Shown one piece after another: positions 62,938 through 64,000 of a DNA stretch of 64,000 bases. The notes beneath the pieces were generated by a model. It saw nothing but the letters and a program-made list of their open reading frames with translations. It was not told the DNA's origin and made no database searches. Within the stretch, counting starts at the first letter, position 1, and each line of letters starts with the position of its first letter. The position numbers and the translations under genes are program-made. The stretch is from Halomonas sp. (GTDB taxonomy: Bacteria; Pseudomonadota; Gammaproteobacteria; Pseudomonadales; Halomonadaceae), in the NCBI RefSeq assembly GCF_007625055.1, contig NZ_VMQS01000001.1, positions 35,154 through 99,153 of the forward strand, written 5' to 3'.

Positions 62938-62962
62938 AAAGCACCGCCTTGGCGGTGCTTTT
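62938..62962. terminator. Bidirectional terminator between lpxC and dciA
   Basis: GCACCGCC (62941-62948) pairs with GGCGGTGC (62951-62958), flanked by AAA on the left and TTTT on the right, between convergent genes. The end of dciA overlaps the T-run by two bases. Confidence 0.8.
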
Positions 62963-63419
62963 AACGTTTTCTGGCATGCGATGCCAATCTGCTCAGAGCG
63001 TCTTTGAGTGCCGGGTCACCGGTCTCTTGTGCACAGGCCGCCAGGGTTTCGCCAGCATCTTTAGAGAGCTCGCGGGTGTTACGCTCAGGTACCTTGACGG
63101 GATGAACCGGTCGTACCTTGAATACCAATGCGCTAACGCCCTCGAACCCTGGTAGCTGGTGCAGTAGCCTCAACAGATTTGACTGCTCAAAGCGTAACCA
63201 GGTTATCCAGCTGGCCTGGCTACTGATGATGGTCAATTTTCCCTGACGAAATCCGCCCACATAAACATGTGCGCGCATTTCTTGCGGCAGATGAGCTCTG
63301 ACATGGCGCTGCGCCTGGTCAATCAGACGCGATTGGCGAATCAGGAGGCTGGCACCGCTGCGTTGTTCGAGGAGTTTCCCGATGGGCTGTGCTCGCGAAC
63401 GCTTAACCTTTATACTCAT
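62961..63419 (-). CDS. dciA: DnaB-helicase loader DciA (DUF721)
   Basis: DciA is the ancestral bacterial helicase operator that loads DnaB in species lacking DnaC. The 152-residue protein from ATG 63419 shows the KH-like DUF721 core: LEQRSGASLLIRQSRLIDQA, then LTIISSQASWITWLRFEQSNLLRLL. A TTG start (63446) would add nine residues. Gene position between lpxC and secA is the usual one in pseudomonads and relatives. It is divergent from the small ORF before secA. Confidence 0.88.
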   Translation of the reverse strand: MSIKVKRSRAQPIGKLLEQRSGASLLIRQSRLIDQAQRHVRAHLPQEMRAHVYVGGFRQGKLTIISSQASWITWLRFEQSNLLRLLHQLPGFEGVSALVFKVRPVHPVKVPERNTRELSKDAGETLAACAQETGDPALKDALSRLASHARKR

Positions 63420-63522
63420 GCGCTTGGCTCTTCGGCTGATCCTCAAATGGGCGTTTGGGGAGGAAACATGATGTTTGCCGTTTAAAAATAAAGCCTAACA
63501 CGCTCAGGAGTTTAGCCACAGC

Positions 63523-63894
63523 ATGTCTTTGCCATCTTTATCGCGACCTTTGTCAGAGCGCCGTTCACGTCGCCATGGGGTTGCGCGATGGTGGTTGGCA
63601 GGCCTCTTGGTGGGCTGTCTGCTGCCGGCTACCTTTTCCCCGGTTGATGTCACGCGCAGCGGCGAGCGCAGCGCTTGTGTGGTGTTATTTGTGCCCGCGG
63701 TGTTGAGAGCCCACTCCCGCCATATTGCCTGGGTGCGGCGGGTTTATCAGCGCTGGCTGGGTAGTGCGCCACCCGACGCGGATGTTCAAGTGACGTCTGG
63801 AAAACGATCCGGTGTCATTATTGTATGGTTGGTAGCCGCTCAAGATGTTTTCACGCGTCGTGGTCCACCGTCCAATCGACGTCAGACAATATGA
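63523..63894 (+). CDS. Small secretory protein upstream of secA; candidate SecM-like arrest peptide
   Basis: I do not recognise the family from overall sequence. The 123-residue product has a basic N-terminus (ERRSRRHGVARW), one hydrophobic segment (about residues 24-40) like a signal sequence, and a basic, low-complexity remainder. The C-terminus reads GVIIVWLVAAQ, then DVFTRRGPPSNRRQTI: R112-R113-G114-P115-P116 followed by seven residues. E. coli SecM ends VWISQAQGIRAGP plus four residues, so W, AQ and R-x-G-P recur, though W-R spacing differs by two or three. Codons after RRGPP form one arm of a hairpin over the secA ribosome-binding site. CAGGAG lies 12 bases before the ATG. Role as a secretion monitor is inference. 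Confidence 0.75.
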   Translation: MSLPSLSRPLSERRSRRHGVARWWLAGLLVGCLLPATFSPVDVTRSGERSACVVLFVPAVLRAHSRHIAWVRRVYQRWLGSAPPDADVQVTSGKRSGVIIVWLVAAQDVFTRRGPPSNRRQTI

Positions 63895-63948
63895 TCCTGG
63901 TAACATCATTTCTATTAGGCTCCTTGAGCTAAGCTACGTCAATTGGAC
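63870..63948 (+). promoter_or_regulatory. Hairpin covering the secA ribosome-binding site
   Basis: GTCCAATCGACGT (63870-63882) pairs with ACGTCAATTGGAC (63936-63948) at 12 of 13 positions, with a single C-A mismatch. The 3' arm contains GGA (63945-63947), six bases before the secA ATG and the only visible Shine-Dalgarno. The 5' arm lies in the last codons of the small upstream ORF, starting at the third base of P116. A smaller stem, GCTC/GAGC (63919-63929), sits in the loop. Confidence 0.75.
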
Positions 63949-63953
63949 AGTTC

Positions 63954-64000
63954 ATGATTAATAATTTATTGCGCAAGGTGGTCGGTTCGAAAAACGACCG
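63954..64000 (+). CDS. secA: Preprotein translocase ATPase SecA, N-terminal fragment
   Basis: The last 47 bases encode MINNLLRKVVGSKND and the start of an Arg codon, matching the SecA N-terminus (E. coli MLIKLLTKVFGSRNDR). SecA is the motor that drives secretory proteins through SecYEG. About 900 residues continue beyond the window. GGA six bases upstream is the likely ribosome-binding site and is held in the hairpin described for 63870-63948. Confidence 0.93.
   Translation, partial: MINNLLRKVVGSKND

Follow-up and report, generated by a model that had tools for sequence, protein, structure and literature searches.

A short open reading frame (uORF) directly in front of secA probably encodes a conserved, predicted-exported peptide that stalls its own ribosome at a C-terminal RGPP motif and thereby exposes the Shine-Dalgarno region of secA. 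The uORF occupies positions 63523..63894 on the forward strand of the window, by which we mean the whole analysed stretch of 64,000 nucleotides of Halomonas DNA. Judged by its sequence, the peptide fits the class of RGPP/RAPP arrest peptides in each feature that can be checked in this way; it would work like SecM and is not a SecM homologue. In the mechanism that we propose, the ribosome making the peptide would stall at the C-terminal RGPP while codon 115 occupies its P site. Predicted base-pairing between the mRNA near the RGPP codons and the Shine-Dalgarno region of secA would hold secA translation down, and a stalled ribosome would cover the RGPP-side arm, freeing the Shine-Dalgarno region. 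By analogy with SecM, active Sec machinery would pull the nascent chain and release the stall, returning secA to low expression; slow export would make the stall last and SecA rise.

The uORF starts with ATG and comprises 123 codons plus the stop. A Shine-Dalgarno-like AGGAG, assigned from the sequence, lies 12 nt 5' of the start codon (63506..63510, forward strand), and a scan of the region 5' of the uORF returned no promoter-like site. A gap of 59 nt separates the end of the stop codon at 63894 from the start of secA at 63954. Only the first codons of secA (63954..64000, forward strand) fall within the window; as the gene continues past its end, we checked its identity by reading further along the window's own contig (MINNLLRKVVGSKNDREVKR...). 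The coordinates and the contig reading agree with the original prediction, which had described a 123-residue ORF with a hydrophobic N-terminus 59 bases upstream of secA. The C-terminal stretch of the product reads ...DVFTRRGPPSNRRQTI, also written ...IIVWLVAAQDVFTRRGPPSNRRQTI, and is followed by the 59 nt up to secA. The C-terminus is made up of VWLVAAQDVFTRRGPP and SNRRQTI, the latter being the seven residues that had been said to follow the motif. Upstream, the divergent neighbour is dciA (62961..63446, reverse strand; PF05258, E 1.2e-9), mentioned for context only, with lpxC next beyond it. Searches with the uORF product returned no match in Pfam or NCBIfam, none among the solved structures of the PDB and none among the RNA families of Rfam. 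One locus of a complete genome (L062, G081:C1, forward strand) shows an unusual arrangement, in which the reading frame runs from the uORF at 530 via RGPP to secA at 1000 with no stop between.

The uORF is a real, conserved gene, kept in most of the relatives examined. Homologues (E<=1e-3) were found in 255 of 275 genomes of the family, representing 19 of its 24 genera; a first sample of the window's genus had the uORF in all 37 genomes, the window's own included. Among the 20 family genomes with no match, two (G187 and G295) do carry the uORF upstream of secA when read, and in two incomplete ones (G261 and G275) no secA was found either. We read 120 loci closely: 40 were the best matches from the genus and family searches, all from the window's genus; 68 from other genera were picked by their position upstream of secA (72 genomes searched, 70 with secA, 68 fetched); and 12 came from about 90 genomes of one further genus. 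The uORF is present in 105 of the 120 loci, with RGPP in 101 and RAPP in 4, as counted by a search pattern that itself required R[GA]PP and a Cys. Two checks were free of this selection. R[GA]PP is present in 89 of 90 loci found by profile, many of them from genomes already among the 120, and stands at most 40 residues from the end in 110 of 111 homologues that were retrieved from the database by whole-protein similarity, the exception being a 93-aa protein. A broken ORF or a C-terminus conserved no better than the remainder, which the original prediction had named as evidence against itself, is thus not what the homologues present. In the sole exception among the profile-found loci (L182, AP019416), the match extends only to residue 69 and the frame contains no R[GA]PP beyond it, probably as a result of a frameshift in the assembly. 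Among the database homologues shown, the names are hypothetical, uncharacterised or secreted protein.

Conservation along the peptide is strongly uneven. Over the 105 motif-picked rows, RGPP carries 4.24 bits per column, residues 22-36 3.77, residues 104-112 2.64 and residues 49-66 2.57, against 1.33 for the spacer (residues 67-103) and 0.59 for the tail; a C-terminal motif conserved above spacer and tail is what had been anticipated. The codons in use at RGPP in these uORFs include all six for Arg, all four for Gly and all four for Pro at each of the two Pro positions. Since every synonymous codon is used, the constraint acts on the peptide. We place the putative arrest motif, VAAQDVFTR-RGPP, at residues 104-116 (63832..63870, forward strand) on the basis of conservation. 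Its RGPP codons span 63859-63870, and toeprints of RQH peptides suggest codon 115 (63865-63867) as the P-site codon and codon 116 (63868-63870) as the A-site codon. Upstream of the motif Arg, Asp stands at -5 in 96 of the 105 uORFs, Val at -4 in 90 and Leu at -3 in 79, and the window's uORF has Phe at this last position. The motif Arg itself lies at residue 103-139. Residue 112 varies (R in 71, Q in 24, P in 8 and C in 2), so the motif is R-G-P-P and not R-x-G-P. Consequently, of the two registers suggested originally, R112-R-G-P115 read as R-x-G-P has to be given up, and R113-G-P-P116 is retained, all 105 uORFs having the R-[GA]-P-P end.

In genera other than the window's, mRNA close to RGPP has a predicted pairing with the Shine-Dalgarno region of secA. 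For this analysis the RGPP segment was defined as beginning 15 nt upstream of the Arg codon and ending 24 nt downstream of that codon's start, positions in front of secA were counted from its start (A), and the segment was dinucleotide-shuffled. Over 87 unique sequences the segment pairs with A-25..A-6 at 0.36-0.48 vs 0.14-0.17 for shuffled segments; its pairing with A-50 to A-31 or with the first 35 nt of secA is not above shuffles. When each of the 46 clusters outside the genus (under 65% identity) was represented by a single sequence, the values were 0.39 and 0.16, respectively (p 6e-8), and with 0, 30 and 60 nt of upstream RNA the test gave p 0.011, 4e-6 and 8e-7. Of eight control tests outside the genus, one, on the secA codons with 60 nt of upstream RNA, gave p 0.033. 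The opening-energy test was significant in 26 of 64 sequences outside the genus.

Over 80 sequences, two stretches account for most of the pairing. The first is R-12 to R-7, the Val-Leu codons at -4/-3, with the Shine-Dalgarno sequence, and the second is R+15 to R+23 with A-26 to A-16. At the first stretch the Val at -4 is encoded by GTC in 48 of 71 cases, compared with 170 of 575 Val codons elsewhere in these ORFs (odds ratio 5.0); as the sequences are related, the accompanying p 1e-9 is too small. In two loci (L050 and L053), GATGTCCTGA, which spans Asp-Val-Leu, perfectly complements TCAGGACATC, which spans the Shine-Dalgarno sequence, and a perfect stretch of 6 or more occurs at this arm in 19 of the 87 sequences vs 7% of shuffles. 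Relative to a ribosome stalled at RGPP, the Val-Leu arm sits at the 5' edge of the footprint, 13-18 nt upstream of the P codon, and its masking by the ribosome is therefore less sure than that of the arm after RGPP. A simpler duplex test over all 103 sequences gave a mean z of -0.23, with 11 sequences at p<=0.05; the arm window of that test opened 9 nt upstream of the Arg codon, truncating the Val-Leu arm, and the window's genus was pooled with the rest. The fold-based tests, of pairing and of opening energy, were made after it. The pairing arms differ between genera, the gap between uORF and secA ranges from 15 to 207 nt, and RNAalifold runs on four genus groups gave nothing useful. A cross-pairing test of arm co-variation showed an excess of -1.07 kcal/mol over 77 clusters and failed its two controls (-0.80 and -0.89), so we do not count it as support.

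In the window, GTCCAATcGACGT (63870..63882, forward strand) starts with the third base of codon 116 and is complementary to ACGTCaATTGGAC (63936..63948, forward strand). The latter includes the Shine-Dalgarno-like TTGGA of secA (63943-63947), and from this complementarity we predict the two to be the 5' and 3' arms of a helix masking the Shine-Dalgarno sequence. Stalling at codon 115 would place the ribosome over the 5' arm. In the two nearest relatives (L002 and L003) the 5' arm differs and pairing is kept, largely via G-U pairs, with one broken pair in L002 and 13 consecutive pairs in L003. The duplex z values of the trio against shuffles are -4.5, -3.6 and -6.0. The mean probability of the window helix varies with the length of upstream RNA included, being 0.98-0.99 for 0 or 15 nt and only 0.00-0.09 from 30 nt upwards; with longer upstream RNA it falls in both relatives too, less so in L003 (0.01-0.59). 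With 30 nt upstream, the opening-energy test was positive only for L002 (window p 1.0, L003 p 0.2). As modelled, then, the window helix competes with other folds, and the equilibrium depends on the upstream RNA; whether that RNA is free would in turn depend on following ribosomes.

For the window's genus, the pairing results lend some weight to a reading that we regard as unlikely: that the peptide stalls and monitors Sec there, but acts via translational coupling, mRNA stability or local re-initiation, no longer via masking of the Shine-Dalgarno sequence. Besides the context dependence of the window's helix, it can draw on the remaining 60 sequences of the genus (the trio aside), whose pairing of 0.08-0.10 vs 0.10-0.11 for shuffled segments is not above shuffles, and on a Shine-Dalgarno region that in 38 sequences of the genus has less structure than its shuffled versions (-0.49 vs -1.31 kcal/mol). 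Set against it is the strong complementary arm that the window and its two nearest relatives have exactly at the site of the stalled ribosome. The low structure of this region also led us to reject a local Shine-Dalgarno hairpin in the genus. In L004-L040 and relatives, the last 22 nt before secA have little structure, as if kept open.

The N-terminal part of the peptide is conserved nearly to the level of RGPP. After an Arg-rich start comes a predicted hydrophobic signal segment, WWLAGLLVGCLLP (residues 23-35; 63589..63627, forward strand), which is conserved in the family and contains an invariant Cys within a lipobox-like LVGC (63607-63618). The Cys follows LVG, LVS or similar in 105 of 105 signal segments, where the search pattern includes it, and in 111 of 111 database homologues, which were not so picked. 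The lipobox pattern [LVI][ASTVI][GAS]C fits 96 of the 105 segments, and Leu comes right after the Cys in all of them. A literature search for arrest peptides or monitoring substrates with a lipobox or lipoprotein signal gave no Sec monitor of that type among the matches listed. This Cys, together with the lipoprotein signals detected for CruR, a precedent on a stall-type uORF (PMC9973294), could mean that the peptide monitors the lipoprotein route, comprising Sec, lipid attachment and signal peptidase II, and not SecA activity as such. We consider this improbable: the controlled gene is secA, not one for lipoprotein processing, and hydrophobic residues run on past the Cys.

Between signal and motif lie a conserved middle block (R..xxx..P..xRAxSR; residues 49-66, 63667..63720, forward strand) and a spacer. 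The middle block sits about 50-60 residues before the arrest site, where the chain would just have exited the tunnel. The spacer (residues ~73-107) is Arg-rich, almost free of acidic residues and variable in sequence, with a length that is nearly fixed across the family. From the Cys to the motif Arg there are 75-82 residues in all 105 uORFs; the stretch from -40 to -6 is basic (mean net charge +7.7), with no acidic residue in 69 of the 105, and the pI of the whole product averages 11.9. Conserved signal segment and middle block would also be expected if the product were simply a small secreted protein or lipoprotein without any regulatory function, a possibility to which we give very little credence given the variable Arg-rich spacer and tail between and after the conserved blocks, the lack of a family or structure match and the place before secA. 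The motif itself speaks against it too, as RGPP is reported to give the most robust arrest in several contexts and to be strongly avoided in proteomes because it stalls (PMC12992588). Within the window, stop-to-stop frames of at least 100 residues (35,926 residues in six frames) contain RGPP once, in the uORF, and RAPP once, elsewhere on the opposite strand.

The uORF looks like an invention of the family Halomonadaceae. When 390 genomes of the order were searched by profile, the 18 strong matches all fell within the family, and three weak partial matches lay outside it (E 3e-4 to 3e-3). A scan of named genomes yielded 159 relatives, and the best 80 of these include Halomonas, Vreelandella, Halovibrio, Aidingimonas, Billgrantia and Litchfieldella. 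All 15 family loci that lack the uORF (L094-L100, L102-L109) have, by eye, an M23-type peptidase gene directly before secA, typed by a GPHVHxEV-like motif that we take to mark this gene; in the loci read, uORF and M23-type gene are mutually exclusive. For other families of the order we obtained 62 loci from 65 genomes and called the secA start in 54, evidently wrongly in two (L256 and L267); two loci (L244 and L249) are under 200 nt long. An M23-type gene precedes secA in 30 of these 54 loci by eye, and an RAPP-like pattern occurs in short frames of 7, none of them a signal-bearing uORF by eye. Because the M23-type gene precedes secA in the family loci without the uORF, and no signal-bearing uORF was seen in the loci read from other families, the uORF occupies the place of another gene. 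By eye, its product has no likeness to the start of the M23-type protein.

What is new here is the family-wide anatomy, the predicted RNA lock, which most of the window's genus has apparently lost, the M23-type exchange and the Cys. Tentatively, and with rather less than even confidence, these can be joined into one account: a Halomonadaceae-specific, lipoprotein-type monitor may have arisen at the site of a former M23-type gene, its Asp-Val-Leu and post-RGPP codons doubling as an anti-Shine-Dalgarno arm by which secA is kept shut; later the lock may have been lost, and the peptide retained, in most of the window's genus. If so, some 40 nt would serve at once as arrest peptide and RNA lock. 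The family forms a natural series, with RGPP and RAPP versions, members that have the RNA lock and members that lack it, and sister genera in which a different gene occupies the place. Such a series allows tests of how arrest peptides originate and of how stalls become secA control, and it makes two questions testable: whether a lipoprotein-type signal can report on Sec, and whether arrest codons can themselves be anti-Shine-Dalgarno.

The closest known system comes from a 2024 screen of uORFs of sec genes by Fujiwara et al., which grouped RAPP-like ends as the RQH family (PMC10987492). The R-A-P-P-type stalling class of the original prediction had accordingly already been described and tested there in the form of RGPP/RAPP uORFs preceding secA. 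One group, uA_RQH_Pseudomonadales, is located upstream of secA and carries R109GPP; it arrests ribosomes of both E. coli and B. subtilis, the arrested fraction exceeding 0.9, and in the tested RQH peptides the third motif residue occupies the P site of the halted ribosome (PMC10987492). As presented in that paper, regulation was tested for a secDF member, not for uA_RQH_Pseudomonadales. The RQH features recur in the window's family: a small uORF of unknown function co-oriented in front of secA, secDF or yidC (here secA, with 123 aa and 59 nt in the window; 105 of 120 loci), an N-terminal secretion signal or TM segment (here the predicted, conserved hydrophobic segment), an RAPP-like motif conserved near the C-terminus (89/90 loci, 110/111 homologues, 105/105 motif-picked uORFs) and, between signal and arrest site, a spacer that RQH criteria set at >30 residues (PMC10987492), a length exceeded by the 75-82 residues from Cys to Arg seen here. 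Like the window's family, uA_RQH_Pseudomonadales combines a small secA uORF with an N-terminal localisation signal, a variable middle and a C-terminal RGPP; its Arg 109 falls in the range of 103-139 observed here and is matched exactly in 7 of the 105 uORFs. GTDB release 202 puts Halomonadaceae in Pseudomonadales, and NCBI taxonomy puts the family in Oceanospirillales. From these shared features and the distribution found here we infer that uA_RQH_Pseudomonadales is very likely the Halomonadaceae family described here. The main text of PMC10987492 does not name Halomonas. A literature search on Halomonas arrest peptides gave nothing on the window's peptide among the matches listed.

ApdA and ApdP share with the window's peptide the R-A/G-P-P core, on which alone we compare them, and hold peptidyl-RAP-tRNA in the P site and Pro-tRNA in the A site (PMC10951233, PMC7897499); they differ in lying upstream of secDF, in Actinobacteria and Alphaproteobacteria. 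In RAPP peptides the Pro-tRNA is reported to be accommodated, and the peptide bond does not form (PMC10951233). The CutF/CruR-type uORFs are alike in having an exported peptide, a proline-rich end and a stem-loop masking the Shine-Dalgarno sequence, but serve metal sensing, and CutF is a DUF2946 protein, a domain with no match in the window's ORF (PMC9973294).

With E. coli SecM the window's system shares the monitor layout before secA and an arrest near the C-terminus. In E. coli the secA Shine-Dalgarno sequence is masked by RNA structure; in Halomonadaceae such masking is a prediction, with pairing above shuffles outside the window's genus, context-dependent in the window and absent in the rest of the genus. 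SecM arrests at RAGP with Gly in the P site, whereas the window's peptide has RGPP with Pro predicted there. The upstream arrest residues of SecM are absent: FxxxxWIxxxxGIRAGP does not describe the window's family, RGPP replacing RAGP, and the proposed likeness to SecM VWISQAQ is not shared by its members, W102 occurring in about 2% of the weighted family. That the product is a strongly diverged true SecM is the least credible reading, for although position before secA, signal sequence and R-[GA]-P-type end agree, and the spacer in short SecM variants is comparable (median 71 residues), none of 38 members matches the SecM Pfam family at E<=0.1, the Trp-Ile and Gly-Ile positions are not conserved, RGPP/RAPP stands in place of RAGP, the uORF is found in one family only of the sampled order, and no intermediate sequences linking the two were found. 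Of the SecM-type monitor originally proposed, then, the sequence features uphold a secretion-monitor-type arrest peptide, one that is independent of SecM.
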